From IMG/VR virus record IMGVR_UViG_3300035665_000079, positions 1-42,999 of that record: a DNA stretch of 42,999 nt. One strand, written 5' to 3'. This stretch comes from a virus. Within the stretch, counting starts at the first letter, position 1, and every line of letters starts with the position of its first letter. The position numbers and the translations under genes were made by a program. The notes under the pieces were generated by a model. It was not told where the DNA came from. It worked only from the letters and a program-made list of their open reading frames with translations, and searched no databases. This document shows, piece after piece, positions 1-42,827 of this stretch.

Positions 1-940
1 GATAGTCTTCTTCACTTACGAACTCAACACTTTCAGCCAGACTTGCGAGCTTGCTCTTCTGGGTCTCAGCGAGACCTCTTGAGACATCATAGAGAATTCC
101 ATCTGATACGGATTCGCTAAGTCTTTGGTTTAACTGAATATTTCTTTCGATTTGCTCGTTGAGTCTTGATTCCATGTCATCAAGTTTTGCGACCATGCTC
201 TCAAGCACATTGTATTTATCTTCAGGGATTGATACATAATGTTCTTCAAAAAGACCCTTGAGGTTTGTCATGAATGACTCCGCAAGTTGAGCCTTGATGC
301 CAGTCTCAACTTGAAGAGCATTCTCCTCAAGCCATTCACCAGCAACATACTCAAGGTATGAGTCTACTCTTTCGGTTAATTGTGCTTCAATAGCAGCAAC
401 ATTTTCCTCAAGAGCAGCTTCATAACGCTTCTGAATAATTTCAGCAGCTTCATCTACTTTTGATCTTAGTGCAGCTTCAAAAACAAGAGCTGCTCTTTCC
501 TTAAATTCTTCGGAGAGATCTTCGTCACCAAAAATGGCTTTCACATCCTCTTCAACGTTAAACTCAAGTTCTGCTTCTTCTTCAGCTTCTTCTTCTACAG
601 TTTCTTCCGCAGCAACTTCTTCTTGCTCAAGAGCTTCTTCTTCAGAAACAACTTCTTGATCTTCTTCAACTTCAACTTCTTCAGCTCTAGCTGCTTTAGC
701 ATTAACTACATCTCTAACGGTTTTCACGTTTTGAGTAGCTAATTTAGAAGAATCGTCAGTTGAACGATAGTTGAAAGGGGTTGGGCCACCTAAGTCGGTG
801 ATTGATTGCCCAGGAACACCAGCAACAAATTCTCCATTTGAGGGCATTGGTTCAGCAGGCTTAGCACCAGCATTAACCGCAGTCTTTGATTGCTTGGCTT
901 GTGACGTTAATTCCATTTCTTGTAAATTACCAGCAGACAT
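1..940 (-). CDS. 22: gp22 prohead core scaffold protein (partial, C-terminus off left edge)
   Basis: Translated by me from the minus strand: 313 codons from ATG at 940 run open to the left edge, so the C-terminus is missing. The start follows GGAG with about 7 nt spacing. Residues 1-80 are Gln/Ala/Pro-rich. Residues about 80-125 are a strongly acidic Glu/Ala/Val tract. From about residue 125 the chain is a charged, heptad-like helix with many Glu, Ala and Lys residues, as expected for the T4 gp22 family, which forms the internal scaffold of the prohead and is degraded by gp21 during maturation. Its place directly downstream of gp21 and next to where gp23 should lie fits T4 order. A TATAAATA late box sits 42 nt upstream, suggesting its own high-level promoter. 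The assignment rests on composition and synteny rather than on a sharp motif. Confidence 0.88.
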   Translation of the reverse strand, partial: MSAGNLQEMELTSQAKQSKTAVNAGAKPAEPMPSNGEFVAGVPGQSITDLGGPTPFNYRSTDDSSKLATQNVKTVRDVVNAKAARAEEVEVEEDQEVVSEEEALEQEEVAAEETVEEEAEEEAELEFNVEEDVKAIFGDEDLSEEFKERAALVFEAALRSKVDEAAEIIQKRYEAALEENVAAIEAQLTERVDSYLEYVAGEWLEENALQVETGIKAQLAESFMTNLKGLFEEHYVSIPEDKYNVLESMVAKLDDMESRLNEQIERNIQLNQRLSESVSDGILYDVSRGLAETQKSKLASLAESVEFVSEEDY

Positions 941-991: not shown

Positions 992-1636
992 TTATAGATT
1001 TCTCAAGTACTCATTGAATACTTTGAGAAGACGCTCTTCGCGGATTTTTTTATCGATTGTTGGTGTTAATGAATTAATTTGCTGTAAAGTTTTTTCAGCT
1101 AAAACTCCATTATTCCAAATCCACTCCTTACCTTCCATAATACCTTGAACAAATGCATCAGGTGCGGAAGGATCTGCTACAATATCAGCAGCAGTTGAAA
1201 GCATAAAATCATCACCAACATACTTGATACCATTACGCTCAACAAGAGATCCAATACCTCTTGAAGAAACACCAAGCTTCACTCCTTCATCAAGAAGTGA
1301 CTTAGCAATGTTACCCATTGGAGTGTCGAGGATTTTTGCTTTACCAATAAAATTATTTCCTTCTGCTTTTAGACTTGTGATCATGTGTGATGCACGATCT
1401 AAATTTACCGTTGGCCCATCGGGATGACCAAGTTCTCCAAGTGCTCTTCCTTCTTTAATATACTTTTGGGTATACTTTGCAACTTCTCTCTCAAGAATTG
1501 GGAAGGGATAGCAACGACCATTGCGGTTTGTAATTTCTGCTTGAAGAAAAGGCCCTGTAATATAAAGACTGGTTTTACCATTCTTTTCTTCGGTGAGAAC
1601 TTGAATATTCTCGATTTGCTCTGTAATTAGTTTCAT
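992..1636 (-). CDS. 21: gp21 prohead core protease
   Basis: 214 aa, about the length of the T4 maturation protease (MEROPS S80-type prohead endopeptidase). It activates inside the prohead and cleaves scaffold, core and capsid proteins, usually after (L/I)xE. Visible signatures: GELGHP with candidate catalytic His71, and LGVSSRG with candidate nucleophile Ser124 or Ser125; their spacing matches the His85/Ser140 pair known for T4 gp21. The R-N-G-R-x-Y-P segment at about residues 38-43 is typical of the family N-terminal domain. The start (MKLITEQ) lies 4 nt after the stop of the 88-aa gene. No strong Shine-Dalgarno is seen (AGGA is about 16 nt away), so translation is probably coupled. Its likely substrates in this window are gp22, gp67 and the small protein at 9959-10279. 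Confidence 0.95.
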   Translation of the reverse strand: MKLITEQIENIQVLTEEKNGKTSLYITGPFLQAEITNRNGRCYPFPILEREVAKYTQKYIKEGRALGELGHPDGPTVNLDRASHMITSLKAEGNNFIGKAKILDTPMGNIAKSLLDEGVKLGVSSRGIGSLVERNGIKYVGDDFMLSTAADIVADPSAPDAFVQGIMEGKEWIWNNGVLAEKTLQQINSLTPTIDKKIREERLLKVFNEYLRNL

Positions 1637-8680: not shown

Positions 8681-9955
8681 TTACCTTTGTTCAATCCAGT
8701 TTAGAACCGCAAGTGCTTTTTTGTTAGTATTGGGACTTGCACAAACAAGTGTATAAGTATCACTAATTGTTCCAATGCCACTTCTACCTAACTGAAGTGC
8801 TGCTCTAACATCAAGATCAACTAACGCACCACTGCCATTAATTACAAAACCACTCAAAAGATCGTCTCCACCAGATACTGCAGTTTGAGTAATATTATAC
8901 TGCATAAAAGAGTTTGGATCGGGATGATTTACCCAAGTTCCTCCAGTCAGTGTTGCATTTTGTAGAAGTTGCCAATAAACATTCGTATTATCATCAGTTG
9001 CTGCCTGTAATGATCTCAAGAGCATTACCGCACCTAAATTACTAGACTTTAGACGAAGACTTATAATTGGATAGAATGTGTTTGCGGATTGCATCGTTGT
9101 CCCTGTGATGGGATTTGAGATGCTCAAAAGAGTTCCAAGTTTTTCTGGTTCTCCTTCCTGAATAAGAGAATTGGAACCTTGATAGATGTAATGAGTTCCT
9201 GCAACACCAGTTACATTTTCTATCTCAAGTCTAATAGGTAAGAAAGGAGTAGAACACCAAACTCCTGGATTAGTATTTGAGTTCTCAAAAGTATGAGATG
9301 CAACAGTCTCATTCTTCATCAACCAAGCAAATTGAATTATACCTGCACCATACCATTCATAATTGATGGAAATCATTTGTTGTTTTGTTGGATCTGCAGT
9401 TACTCCAGTCCACCCATTACCATCAAACTTTTCACCATTCCATTCATCTCTGTATACTCTGGTTTCTGTAACAATTCCAGTTACACTACTGCGAATTACA
9501 TAAGAATATGTTCCTCCATTATCCTCAAAGAAAATACCATTATTATCATCAAACAATCCAAATCTTCTGCGAATACCTACTTGTGGTTGTTCAAGACGAA
9601 TTGCAAATGCAAGAGTTGCACCTCTACCAGGAATGTATCTCATTACATTCTTGGTTTGACGAACGATTTTACTACCAGCAGTAGAACCAACTTGCATTAT
9701 AACATTACTGGCATTTGCATTAAATGTTGCAGTTCCTACTCCAACTACTCTTTCATCCCATACATCAGTCTCTTTGCCATACTGAAAGGTATTGAAGAAT
9801 ACTGTTTGATATGGAGATATTTTGAATCTGTTGTTATTAGAAAATTGAGGTCTCCAATCTGTCTGGTTTCCCCAGTGATCTGCAATATTAAAAACTTCAA
9901 ATAAAGATCTTTCTTGATCTAAGAAGTCCTGTGTTTTCTTATTCCACTGAGCCAT
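8681..9955 (-). CDS. Putative virion structural protein with lectin-like beta domain
   Basis: 424 aa. The N-terminal 40 residues are polar/helical (WNKKTQDFLDQERSLFEVFNIADHWG). The rest is beta-rich. A central block at about residues 95-150 (KIVRQTKNVMRYIPGRGATL, RRRFGLFDDNNGIFFED) is a pattern I know from many unrelated phage structural proteins (P-G-R plus R-x-G-x-F-D-x-x-N-G-I-F-F), suggestive of a jelly-roll or concanavalin-type fold. The C-terminal half is Asn/Thr/Ser-rich. Cyanophages commonly carry a gene of this type near the terminase genes, annotated as virion structural. A receptor-facing or capsid-decorating role is inference. Stop and start are 3 nt from the preceding gene, so it is probably coupled. 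Confidence 0.8.
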   Translation of the reverse strand: MAQWNKKTQDFLDQERSLFEVFNIADHWGNQTDWRPQFSNNNRFKISPYQTVFFNTFQYGKETDVWDERVVGVGTATFNANASNVIMQVGSTAGSKIVRQTKNVMRYIPGRGATLAFAIRLEQPQVGIRRRFGLFDDNNGIFFEDNGGTYSYVIRSSVTGIVTETRVYRDEWNGEKFDGNGWTGVTADPTKQQMISINYEWYGAGIIQFAWLMKNETVASHTFENSNTNPGVWCSTPFLPIRLEIENVTGVAGTHYIYQGSNSLIQEGEPEKLGTLLSISNPITGTTMQSANTFYPIISLRLKSSNLGAVMLLRSLQAATDDNTNVYWQLLQNATLTGGTWVNHPDPNSFMQYNITQTAVSGGDDLLSGFVINGSGALVDLDVRAALQLGRSGIGTISDTYTLVCASPNTNKKALAVLNWIEQR

Positions 9956-9958
9956 GAA

Positions 9959-10279
9959 TTAAACCCAATCTAATTTTGCGTAATGATATCTTTTAGAATC
10001 TTTAATATTGATAGAACTTTCCTGATGATGTACAGGATAAATTTGTTGTATAATAACGCCAGGATATTCAGCTTGAAGATGTTCTGCTAATTTTTCTTTT
10101 GATGGAATACCATCTTTAGATGTCATCTCCATTCTATAAAACTGCCCTCTCCAAACAAGATCGGCAATAAATTCCTCACCAACTTGTTGTGGTTCTTGTT
10201 GACCACCAATGTTTAAAGTTCCATTGAAGTCACCATTAATAGTAACGTTTTCTGAAAGAAATTGATTGAAGCTTTTCAT
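9959..10279 (-). CDS. Small protein with T4-like capsid-targeting N-terminus (probable internal/core protein)
   Basis: I choose the ATG at 10279 (MKSFNQFLSEN, 106 aa). The longer reading from 10330 overlaps the upstream gene by 50 nt, while 10279 is 1 nt after its TGA (TGATATG). The first ten residues closely resemble the capsid-targeting sequence of T4 internal proteins (MKTYQEFIAE), and L-S-E before Asn11 fits a gp21-type (L/I)xE cleavage site. The body contains EFIADLVWRGQFYRMEM and IPSKEKLAEHLQAEYPG then IYP at 58-82. This block is paralogous to residues 181-205 of the upstream gene. A small packaged or core protein processed by gp21 is the likely identity; molecular function unknown. Confidence 0.8.
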   Translation of the reverse strand: MKSFNQFLSENVTINGDFNGTLNIGGQQEPQQVGEEFIADLVWRGQFYRMEMTSKDGIPSKEKLAEHLQAEYPGVIIQQIYPVHHQESSINIKDSKRYHYAKLDWV

Positions 10280-10280
10280 A

Positions 10281-11474
10281 TCAGCAATTCCAAGCTCTAA
10301 GGGACTTATTGATTCTGCTATTAGGATCACTAGCAGTTTTTTTGCTGGTACGTTTGTTTTTCATACCTCTCATACGAGCGCAGAATGATGCTCTACGAGG
10401 ATTACCAACTTTTTTTGAAGGTGCTTTTAGATCACTATCAGGATTTTCTCTTTCATAAGACTTTCTACCTTTCTCGTTTAGACCGCCTTTTTTGTTTTGA
10501 CCTTCCTTACGAGTCCAAGCAGCACCTTCACCAATGACACCAATATTTAAAAGATAGTTCTTACGACGCTTTTCTGGAGTATCAATTGTGGTATTTTCTT
10601 GAATATCTTCACCTTCAGCTTTATAAGAATCTGCAGTTCTAACCATTCCTGAACCAGGACTTAAATTTGGAAGACCTACAGCAGCTGCTTTTTTCTTTTG
10701 AAGATCTATGGCTTTTTGTCCCAATTGTGAAGCAGCAGCGGGTGTTAATGCCCCAGCTCCTGATGATTTTCTAACTTCAAAATCAGAACTAAATGGACTT
10801 GCTTCAGCTACGTTCTCTTCGTTAGCGACTACATATCCAGAGTTCGTACTTGTCATGCATGGATAATATGCAAGAACTTTTCCACCAGGATATACTTTTT
10901 GAACGGCATCATTTACTTCATCTCTAGATGGAACTTGTGGAGATGGGAAGTACATTTTCAAAGTATATGTTTTACTTAAAAACATAATCATGATAGAATA
11001 TAACTGACCAGAGGTTTGAATTCTTTTTACAGACTCTGATACGTTTTCATCGCTTTGCATATACTCTGCAGCGGTATCAATAAAATCTGCAGCCCTGGTA
11101 ATTTTAGATTGAACCCAAGCAGGAATTTGCTGATTTGATTTTTTAATTACTTTTCTTAAAACGTTGATTGATCTCTCAATTTGATCAAATTCAACGTTTG
11201 CCATATATCCTTCTTCGTCTTTCATCTTGCCAGAGGCAACTTCCTTATGATCTTCAGTAATTTTTTTAGTTTCCATCTTTTTTAACTTTGTATAATAGTT
11301 TGGAAGTTCTTCTACGTGTTGGAGGGCAATTTTCATGGCAGTGGGCTTATTCTTAGTATGCTCTTTTTCAACACTCGTTCCCATGACTATTTGCCTTCTA
11401 ATTACAGAAGGACTTACCCCATGCTTAGCCGCTATTTGATTTATACTCTTAGCAGGTTTTAATTGCTCTTGCAT
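10281..11474 (-). CDS. DUF5661/DUF6321-like modular protein, function unknown
   Basis: 397 aa with four visible modules. Residues about 8-70: INQIAAKHGVSPSVIRRQI then EKEHTKN...AMKIALQHVEELPNYYTKLKKME, which matches my memory of DUF5661 (helical, E-H-T and YYTKL signature). Residues 108-140: IPAWVQSKITRAADFIDTAAEYM, a helical block frequent in cyanophage proteins. Residues 155-205: YSIMIMFLSKTYTLKM then VPSRDEV...QKVYPGG...YYP, shared with the next gene. Residues about 318-397: AWTRKEGQNKKGGLNEKGRKSY, RRASFCARMRGMK, TASDPNSRINKSLRAWNC, which matches DUF6321 as I know it and is very basic. Lies between small and large terminase genes. DNA or packaging association is plausible from the basic tail and location but is inference. 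Confidence 0.82.
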   Translation of the reverse strand: MQEQLKPAKSINQIAAKHGVSPSVIRRQIVMGTSVEKEHTKNKPTAMKIALQHVEELPNYYTKLKKMETKKITEDHKEVASGKMKDEEGYMANVEFDQIERSINVLRKVIKKSNQQIPAWVQSKITRAADFIDTAAEYMQSDENVSESVKRIQTSGQLYSIMIMFLSKTYTLKMYFPSPQVPSRDEVNDAVQKVYPGGKVLAYYPCMTSTNSGYVVANEENVAEASPFSSDFEVRKSSGAGALTPAAASQLGQKAIDLQKKKAAAVGLPNLSPGSGMVRTADSYKAEGEDIQENTTIDTPEKRRKNYLLNIGVIGEGAAWTRKEGQNKKGGLNEKGRKSYERENPDSDLKAPSKKVGNPRRASFCARMRGMKNKRTSKKTASDPNSRINKSLRAWNC

Positions 11475-17114: not shown

Positions 17115-20100
17115 TTATGCTAATGCAATTGCTCTAAATTCTTTGATCTTAGGTACAAAGGCTTGATTAGTGCCAGTCATTACCACCTTAATTGTAAATC
17201 CAGTAAATTCTGGTAAATTGTTAACAGTAAATTTATAATCACGATATTCATTATTATTACTTGATGCGATGTTGGTGTCAGGTGTTCCATCACCAAGATT
17301 TGTATATCCTGGGAAAAGAACGTATGGTTGATCTACATCAGGGGAATCATTTCTATAAAGTTTGTATAGAACACGAATATCATTACTTTCATCTCTAAAT
17401 GCTGCAAATCTTACATCAAGAGACGTTGCAGGATTTTCTAAATTAACTCTTTTAGTTACATAAGTAGCTGCACTTGGATCAGTTAAATCTGAATTAACTC
17501 TATTATCTCCAACAAAATCAGTAATTGAATTGTCAATTCTGTTTGTTGTTGTAATTACATTAATTCTATCTAAATCGATTACAGGTGATACATTTCTATT
17601 TTGAGTGCTTAAAGTCATTTCCATAGTAAATGACTTATTACCAGGGAGAGATGAAAGTTTATCAAGTTCATTAACTTCAGAACAAATAATTCTAGGAGTA
17701 GTAAATTGATTTACTGCATTTAAATTAATTGGTTCATAACCATTGTCTTGGAATGAAATTTCAGTTCCATCAACACTAGTAGCACTGACTGTTCTTACTC
17801 TTGTTGCAATTTGAGTTGTAGAAGGAATCATAATCTGAACATTAGGAGTAAGAGTTTCAAACTGAATATTTTGAGTTGCTCTTACATTTCTACCACCAGC
17901 TTGCTCAGTGTCACTAAATGCAAGAATTGGTAAACCGTTTGAGCCATCTCTAGCAGTTCCCAATCCAGTTGATGTTGTATTGATTTTAACATAATAAGAA
18001 TCTAATTCAATATCATTCGATACATCAACATCAGCAAAATTATGAGTTGTATTAACTCTTCTCAATGAGACACCAGCAAGTTCATACTTCATAACTGGTG
18101 AGTTAACTGTATGTGTTTGAGCAACTGTGTTATCAATGGCTCTAGAAATACCAGTTAAAGTTTGAGGAGATGTTGATGCGTTAGTACCAGTGTAACTGAT
18201 AACTTCATTGTTAATTAAAATATAACCTGGATTTGTGCTTGAAACCCCAACATTTTCAAAGCTTGTAAATATACCTACGTTGGTTACTGGAAGACCAGTT
18301 GTTGTTGTGTTAGTATATTCTTGTGCTAAACGAACAGGAATAATATCAGAAATAGCTCCAGAAATAATTACTTTATTGTTTCTTCCATGCATACCATGAT
18401 TTCTATGAGAAATCTTCATATACAATCCAGTCTTGTCAGAAGCATTAGTGACTGTTGTAGGAACTGCTGGCAGAGTAGATGCTATACCAACGTTTGGCCC
18501 ACTACCAACAAGCCAAGCAACTTGATTAACAGTGTCAAAATTGCCCTGAACATTAGTAATTGTAAGTTGATTTAAAGCAGAAACAATTCCAACATTAAAT
18601 CTTATATTTTCACTAACTGCACCAATTCTAGCTGTTAACACATCTCCAACTGCATATCCTCTACCACCACTGGTTACAGTAATAACACCAATGTTACCAC
18701 TATTGATTGAAATTGACATTTGAGCACCAGTTCCAACTCCACTGATAGAAGATAGATTTACTCCAGTGTAAGTAAAGTTTCCTGCCGATGGTGTCAGTCC
18801 ACTACCAACATTATTGACTTGTAATGCTTGCGTATTATTAATTGCAATTGCACCAGTGGCAGACTTTAATTTACCTGTGGTGTTTGTATTATTAAGTTGA
18901 GTAATTGTAACTCCAGGTGTTAAGAAAGTGCTTGGGACAGTTGATCCAAGACCTACAACAACTTCTTTAGAAATTGTTTGAACTGGCTGAGGTCTTAGAA
19001 TTGGAACTTGACGATTACCAATTCCAAGTTTGGGGTTGTATAGTTTAAAGATTCCAGGATCAGTTACAAACTGTGCCTTATAAAGAACAAACTTAAGATC
19101 CTCTAGCTGACTTGCATCCCACGTAGAGCCATTTTGTGACTTAAATAGTGATCCTAAGTATGGTTGTTGAGAAACAATTACTCTTTGATTTTCAGAAAGA
19201 TTTGTTGTAGTGATATCAACTTCACCCATTCTTGAAATCCAAACAGTATAGTTGTTTGAATCGGAAAGGAGAACAATCGCATATTCTCTACCATTGCCTT
19301 CAAGATAAACAGGAGATGGGAAAGTAAATTTAGTAGGAACAGTTCCGTCTGTAGATGTTGTAACTTGAGTTGATTCTAATGTTACTTGGCTAAACGCAAT
19401 AATAGTTGAGGTTGGTTGACCAGTTTGCGTAGTTCTAATTTGACACGTTACTGGAATATTATCATCTTTAGTTGCAAAATAAACATCCAATGATGTCATG
19501 AATACACCACCATCATCTGTAACCAAGAATGTTTCAGCTAAAGGATCATACCAGTTTTGGTTTGTAACTGTTCTGGTTTGAGCAGATGTTGATCTTGATA
19601 AAGTAGATACTGTTTCAGAAACAGTTGTAGTATCTGAAACTTGCGTTCTTTGAATGTCTGCATTTCTTGTTGAAATGACAGTTTCCTGGGTGGTATTCAA
19701 TTCACCAGACGAAGTGAATACAACTTCTGCTTGGCTATTGTATGATCCTGGAATTGGATTGTTAGTCTCATTCGCAGTCAGTAATAAAGTTTTTCTTCCC
19801 GTTTCAAATTCGGGTTCTGTTGGACTTGCTGGATCTGGAATAAACAGTGATGCAATTAGAGTTCCGTTTCTATCAGAGATTAATCTTAAATCTCTTACAG
19901 AAGCTTGTGCTCCGCTAGTTTGACCAATAAGAACCATTCTTGGTACAATTTGACCGTAGAAATTACTTTCTGATTGAGCACCCAAGCTGAAAGTATCAAT
20001 ATTTAAAATAGTGGAAGTTGCAGAATAATCTGCAGCTAAAGTTAAAGTATCTTCGTATGGATTAACATCAAATACTTGAGTTGGGCTATCATAAGGACCA

Positions 20101-42221: not shown

Positions 42222-42827
42222 ATGGACGATCCAACACTCAGAACGTTATTAGACACGTACTCTAAGATGTACGCTGTAGATGAGAAAGAGGCTGCGGAAG
42301 AAACTGTTGAAGAAAATACAGAAGAGCTGGACGAGAAGAGAGGCTTATGGGATAACATCCATGCTAAGAGAAAGCGTGGTGAAGCTCCCGCAAAGCCTGG
42401 TGAAGAAGGATATCCAAAGACTCTGAAAGTAGAAGGCGTTGAGCTGCAAGAAGGTCTTAAGCAGGCTCGCAAGAACGTCGGCGCAAGTAAGTGTTGGCCC
42501 GGCAAAGTTGCTAAGGGTACAAAAATGAAGAATGGTCGTGAAGTACCTGACTGCAAAACTGAGGCTTATGACATTGTTCTTGATTATCTTATCTCAGAAG
42601 GTTTAGCAAGTGATGTCGAAACAGCTGACAAGATCATGCTAGTCATGTCTGATGATAAGATCAAAGAGATTGTCGAACAGTCCGCTCTTGCACAAAGAGC
42701 TGCCGCCGCCGTTGATGACCAGAGAAGAGGTTCTTATGGTATGGCAGATGATCTCAATAAGACTAGAAAAGCCTTAGATAAGCTGAAGCCTTATCCAAAC
42801 GGCTTCCCTGGTGTCAAGCCAATCTGA
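42222..42827 (+). CDS. Modular phage protein (201 aa), the only plus-strand gene, function unknown
   Basis: 201 aa. Residues 1-45: short helix and acidic tract EKEAAEETVEENTEELDEKRG. 46-70: RGLWDNIHAKRKRGEAPAKPG followed by YPKTL, a basic motif frequent in marine phage proteins. 88-108: CWPGKVAKGTKMKNGREVPDC, a two-Cys module also widespread in such phages. 110-146: AYDIVLDYLISEGLASDVETADKIMLVMSDDKIKEIVE, a helical module often repeated in cyanophage proteins. C-terminus: helix and PYPNGFPGVKPI. The mix suggests a virion- or core-associated protein, but no function is demonstrated. Read in the direction opposite to all neighbours, with its own terminator. Confidence 0.85.
   Translation: MDDPTLRTLLDTYSKMYAVDEKEAAEETVEENTEELDEKRGLWDNIHAKRKRGEAPAKPGEEGYPKTLKVEGVELQEGLKQARKNVGASKCWPGKVAKGTKMKNGREVPDCKTEAYDIVLDYLISEGLASDVETADKIMLVMSDDKIKEIVEQSALAQRAAAAVDDQRRGSYGMADDLNKTRKALDKLKPYPNGFPGVKPI

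Follow-up and report, generated by a model that had tools for sequence, protein, structure and literature searches.

A T4-type capsid-targeting-like decapeptide at the N-terminus of a small cyanophage protein and of many unrelated proteins of aquatic T4-like viruses

A small protein of a T4-like cyanophage begins with the decapeptide MKSFNQFLSE, which resembles the capsid targeting sequence (CTS) of the T4 internal proteins and recurs in front of many unrelated proteins of aquatic T4-like phages. Its gene lies in the window, a virus fragment of 42,999 bases from a phage near Synechococcus phage DSL-LC03. With a probability of roughly 0.7, we read the decapeptide as a T4-type CTS that would dock the protein during head assembly, be cut off by gp21 and release the domain behind it in the head. 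As far as sequence comparison reaches, the CTS reading is well supported, owing to the position-specific conservation of the tag, the recovery of the T4 internal proteins, the unrelated nature of its carriers, its association with gp21 and the detection of tagged proteins in virions. Against it stand the acidic pI (5.5) of the protein, its undetected orthologues and the genomes of S-PM2 and HTVC008M, which have no motif gene. That the tag targets the prohead is quite likely; that this particular protein, a member of PHROG 1742, also stays in the mature virion is rather doubtful.

The gene occupies positions 9959 to 10279 on the minus strand, stop codon included, and clearly belongs to PHROG 1742 (phrog_1742, E = 2.7e-36, residues 1-100), a family with no assigned function whose matches comprise 140 phage records, every one a cyanophage. 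The product of 106 residues (first residues MKSFNQFLSENVTING) matches 62 viral loci, and a Pfam search with it and 31 relatives gave no credible family. Its frame, MKSFNQFLSEN..., opens with the ATG at 10279-10277 on the minus strand. The sequence-only reading had moved the start to this codon and predicted the N-terminus MKSFNQFLSE followed by Asn; re-reading of the minus-strand frame reproduced that N-terminus, and the same ATG opens the frame in all 43 listed relatives and is the start used in the annotations of DSL-LC03 and S-SCSM1. Among the listed relatives, the ATG and the preceding gene's stop codon often overlap (TGATG or TAATG), and in several of them just zero to five open codons precede it; the GTG at 10330 thus lacks conservation as a start. 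This GTG, which also overlaps the upstream gene, was rejected as a start codon; judging from the frames of the relatives, its call is an artefact of mechanical ORF calling.

The decapeptide (10250-10279, minus strand), recognised by its exact motif and its conservation, is the most conserved part of the PHROG 1742 protein. In an alignment of 32 relatives, mean pairwise identity was 0.88 for residues 1-10, 0.73 for residues 11-20, 0.40 for residues 21-32 and 0.55 for the folded domain. M1, K2, F4, F7 and E10 (32/32) were invariant, and position 8 was leucine or isoleucine in 31 of the 32 sequences and methionine in the remaining one. Both AGY and TCN codons are used for Ser3, showing that conservation acts at the level of the peptide. 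The motif pattern matches the window exactly once, and shuffled windows gave 0.32 matches on average with up to three mismatches allowed.

The first ten residues of T4 IPIII are enough to direct incorporation into the head; targeting depends on residues 4 and 7 and processing on residues 8 and 10, and gp21 cleaves after (L/I)xE (PMC9026906). The conserved positions of the PHROG 1742 tag coincide with these determinants: the tag is a true protein N-terminus of about ten residues with aromatic residues at positions 4 and 7, leucine or isoleucine at position 8 and glutamate at position 10, and a gp21-type protease is encoded in the same genome. The claim of the sequence-only reading that T4 internal proteins start with MKTYQEFIAE holds for IPII and IPIII in the T4 record and fails for IPI, which starts with MKTFKEFTST and comes closer still to the cyanophage tag at positions 4-7; the proposed common pattern MK(S/T)(F/Y)x(Q/E)F with (L/I)xE was found in IPII and IPIII as well. 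When the pattern derived from the cyanophage sequences, MK[S/T..][F/Y]x[Q/E]F, was run against the whole T4 genome, it hit four sites, namely IPI, IPII, IPIII and gp61.1, and the reversed pattern had no match there. T4 gp61.1 (L201, T4 18966-19130), a protein of 54 residues and unknown function, begins with MKTFKEF like IPI and may, on this resemblance, be a candidate for an unrecognised head-targeted protein.

Both predicted partners of the tag are encoded in the window, together with portal, tail and neck genes and both terminase subunits. The gp21-type prohead protease, the predicted processing enzyme, lies at 992-1636 (minus strand), just where it had been placed from the letters; it was confirmed by Pfam (PF03420, Peptidase_S77, E = 3.7e-35) and phrog_207, and has LGEL-H-P and GVSSRG-GSL blocks in common with T4 gp21. 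Adjoining it at 1-940 (minus strand) is a partial gp22-like prohead core scaffold, the predicted CTS receptor or core partner, with 12 (L/I)xE sites, whereas shuffled sequences have 6.8 and reach 12 in 2.7% of cases. During head assembly, the tag would dock the protein onto the gp22 scaffold core via Phe4 and Phe7, and gp21 would then cut after Glu10 (L8-S9-E10/N11), so that Asn11 (10247-10249, minus strand) would become the new N-terminus under the (L/I)xE rule. Inside the head, the cut would free a small beta-beta-alpha-beta domain preceded by a flexible leader; the protein may then either remain there in few copies and be ejected, or disappear together with other core proteins.

The gene is flanked by that of a DUF5661/DUF6321 protein and that of a virion structural protein and stands immediately ahead of the large terminase. 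The upstream neighbour (10281-11474, minus strand), in which Pfam recognises DUF5661, a shared domain and DUF6321, is without the tag; its S-SCSM1 counterpart SSCSM1_29 is labelled virion protein, and its S-SZBM1 counterpart SSZBM1_192 is tagged. The downstream neighbour (8681-9955, minus strand) is the virion structural protein PHROG 1645 (phrog_1645, E = 4e-181), whose counterpart SSZBM1_190 was detected by mass spectrometry (MS). Tagged DUF6321/DUF5661 relatives were seen in S-SZBM1 (L289/L290, MKTFKQYITE) and in L081 (MKSFKEFIKE); as the protein is untagged in the window and tagged in these relatives, whole proteins appear to gain or lose the tag. Elsewhere in the window, a plus-strand gene at 42222-42827 faces the minus-strand structural genes and is a mosaic of short segments that recur in a number of uncharacterised phage families, phrog_28131 and phrog_22379 among them; some of these families have DUF6321 at their end. 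In DSL-LC03, the annotated start of the gene at 130424-131107 (L203) is probably wrong; its internal ATG at 130541, directly after the major capsid gene, starts MKSFNQFCKD, a motif variant with Asp10.

In the AlphaFold2 model, a short helix at residues 4-9 is followed by a linker of residues 11-33 (10181-10249, minus strand), predicted to be mostly disordered (pLDDT < 50 for residues 8-31), and by a folded domain of the order beta-beta-alpha-beta comprising residues ~34-106 (9962-10180, minus strand; pLDDT mostly above 90). The domain is related to DUF6321 proteins: phrog_1742 has a second match in the upstream DUF6321 protein (residues 145-210, E = 3e-4), and DUF6321 proteins, including an S-SCSM1 virion protein, appear among its fold matches in BFVD. 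A sequence profile search of the PDB with the protein of 106 residues gave no significant match. The best PDB matches in Foldseek were T7 Gp2 in 4lk0 (probability 0.91, 0.84) and YkzG in 4njc (0.72, 0.82), with E values of 0.2-0.5 for the full model and the domain alone, which are not significant, and with ribosomal L18a/LX proteins scoring similarly. It is therefore very unlikely that the released domain acts after injection as an effector binding the host RNA polymerase, like T7 Gp2 or YkzG and in parallel to T4 Alt. A phage RNA polymerase inhibitor among the BFVD matches and the RNA polymerase epsilon subunit YkzG beside T7 Gp2 would fit such an effector, but similarity to T7 Gp2 or epsilon is significant neither in fold nor in sequence, and the occurrence of the related domain in DUF6321 virion proteins suggests a structural role.

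The tag is by no means restricted to PHROG 1742. Its codon pattern occurs in at least 120 stretches of viral contigs against one with scrambled codon order, 257 Gb of prokaryote genomes yielded six matches, and 16 of 2828 ORF starts in eight marine phages carry the motif vs one of 7497 internal Met positions; chance similarity was rejected by these three controls. Two scans, the counts of both being lower bounds, listed 258 matches. At most 30 open codons precede 252 of them, the median closed ORF is 153 aa long, and the motif proteins of 40 aa or more among the matches listed (251) fall into 82 unrelated tail clusters. Other cyanophage genes with the same type of tag, to which the sequence-only reading had pointed, were indeed found and include cytidylyltransferases and a SAM hydrolase. 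Above the curated Pfam cut-offs, the cargo comprises an ADP-ribosyltransferase in polyvalent proteins, cytidylyltransferase, glucosaminidase, a lytic transglycosylase fold, DUF5661 and DUF6267; a methyltransferase and an ADP-ribosyltransferase exoenzyme were seen below them. Peptidase_S77 is encoded by 18 of the 33 larger motif-bearing contigs sampled, and the other 15 are also without the gp23 capsid gene, indicating that the head module is missing from these fragments. For gp21, a control with random contigs carries no weight because of its small size: scrambled patterns gave just one and four loci, one of which came from a phage with a gp23 gene. No motif gene was found in the genomes of S-PM2 and HTVC008M, so the tag is not required by every phage of the group, nor in S-CBWM1 and S-TIM5, which are outgroups and not Kyanoviridae.

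Some carriers deserve separate mention. Four different tagged genes (MKTFKQFITE/ISE/ILE/ITE) stand in a row at 6505-9422 of contig L112, possibly a cassette of head-targeted proteins. The ADP-ribosyltransferase-like tagged protein of L118 (ART-PolyVal, E = 9.7e-24) is reminiscent of T4 Alt, and tagged proteins of L148, L333, L082, L317 and L112 show a weak or by-eye resemblance to ADP-ribosyltransferases. SSCSM1_93 (S-SCSM1 91626-91835; L003/L066), a virion protein of 69 aa, has a C-terminus, ...RTFKEFLEYIE, that resembles the tag.

Usable published virion MS data were available for four T4-like cyanophages, S-CREM2, S-SCSM1, S-SZBM1 and S-SM1. All three motif genes of S-CREM2 are represented among its 52 detected virion proteins (SAM hydrolase, MKDFDSFLEE; gp136, MQTFSMFFSE; cytidylyltransferase, MKNFSSFLTE). 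The NMNAT of S-SCSM1 (MKSFLQFLKE) is a virion protein, the sole motif gene of S-SM1, a cytidylyltransferase (MKKFSAFLNE), was reported in the virion as T4-GC190, and the cytidylyltransferase SSZBM1_140, carrying the nine-residue variant MRFRQFIIE, was detected in the virion of S-SZBM1, whose MS list does not contain SSZBM1_192 (DUF6321, MKTFKQYITE). In total, six of nine motif genes were detected where 1.6 would be expected (P = 0.0015). One cytidylyltransferase family accounts for four of them, and without it two of five remain (P = 0.22); both P values are descriptive, since the motif definition was relaxed stepwise while the genomes were read, admitting K/R/Q/N at position 2 and the nine-residue variant. 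The GenBank record of S-SCSM1 labels 48 genes as virion protein vs 45 in the paper, so these labels follow the experiment closely, not exactly. Overall, the virion data speak for the tag as such, though a single enzyme carries much of their weight.

The detected tagged proteins may also be abundant contaminants carried over, a possibility raised by the S-SCSM1 authors, and the decapeptide could then have a role outside the head, for instance as a binding site for a component of the tail or neck, or just belong to the family fold. We regard this as unlikely, given that the tag lies outside the AlphaFold2 fold with a disordered stretch behind it, is common to the 82 unrelated tail clusters among the matches listed and agrees with the T4 determinants position by position.

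Within the CTS reading, the fate of the PHROG 1742 protein is the point that calls for most caution. The sequence-only reading had predicted a protein packaged in the mature head and possibly injected, which current data do not support: the orthologues SSCSM1_30 and SSZBM1_191 are missing from the two MS virion lists, a non-detection that is not proof of absence. SSCSM1_30 is annotated as hypothetical only, between two genes labelled virion protein, and SSZBM1_191 went undetected while its neighbour SSZBM1_190 was found. Both orthologues would yield tryptic peptides suited to detection, and the two studies did detect other proteins as small as 61-93 aa (61 aa in S-SCSM1). These negatives in two virions are the main weakness of the packaged-protein prediction and reflect either a low copy number or a prohead-core component lost at maturation.

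The second of these, a transient core protein which the tag recruits to the scaffold core, where it helps assembly before being cut and lost on maturation, is a real possibility, if somewhat short of even odds. It would account for the absence of the orthologues from two virion proteomes in which neighbouring head or tail products are present, and it has a precedent in T4 gp68, of which the prohead contains 240 copies and the head none (PMC9026906). The gene also lies in a head-assembly block and is widely conserved, with its 140 phage records, unlike the poorly conserved T4 internal proteins. The protein has, however, only two (L/I)xE sites, LSE at residues 8-10 and LAE at residues 64-66, far fewer than a degraded scaffold, and its folded domain looks stable. 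A low-copy head protein, trimmed at Glu10, kept alongside the DNA and delivered into the cyanobacterial cell, is doubtful in view of the two proteomes, even though T4 IPI-III, which bear the same tag, are packaged and largely ejected, and tagged enzymes do occur in cyanophage virions.

Beyond the single protein, the wider and more interesting outcome would be a head address common to dozens of unrelated proteins from aquatic T4-like phages. On what we judge to be an even balance, the decapeptide may be a general head-loading address across aquatic T4-like viruses, used by at least 80 unrelated protein families, among them ADP-ribosyltransferases, cytidylyltransferases, a SAM hydrolase, a methyltransferase, cell-wall enzymes and many of unknown function. 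If so, much of the injected protein cargo could be read directly from genome sequence. If the tag works as in T4, it would explain the puzzling repeated presence of metabolic enzymes in cyanophage virions and offer an easy way to recognise, from sequence, the early, injected proteins of some highly abundant marine viruses, covering genes that are mostly of unknown function. In the open-access literature, which leaves most subscription journals outside its scope, none of six exact seven-residue forms of the motif led to a paper, and searches on broader topics found no description of a T4-type targeting peptide in cyanophages.

Among known systems, T4 IPI-III share with the PHROG 1742 protein the N-terminal MK[ST][FY]x[QE]F, the small size and a gp21 in the same genome, and IPII and IPIII also the (L/I)xE at residues 8-10, whereas IPI has the F4/F7 motif with (L/I)xE only later (ITE, residues 17-19). 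In contrast to the internal proteins, the tail behind the cyanophage tag is unrelated, acidic and widely conserved in cyanophages, and the protein has so far gone undetected in virion proteomes. CTS-bearing substitutes in T4 relatives are described as basic in a review, but the cyanophage protein has a pI of 5.5 before and after the predicted trimming. T4 gp67 and gp68 are likewise head-assembly genes near gp21/gp22 with a proposed prohead-core location, and the absence of gp68 from the mature head would fit the PHROG 1742 protein; neither of them starts with the motif, however. The cyanophage cytidylyltransferase/NMNAT T4-GC190, finally, carries the tag as MKSFSQFLTE in P-SSM2 and MKSFLQFLKE in S-SCSM1 and is present in several virions, with an unrelated enzyme domain behind it.
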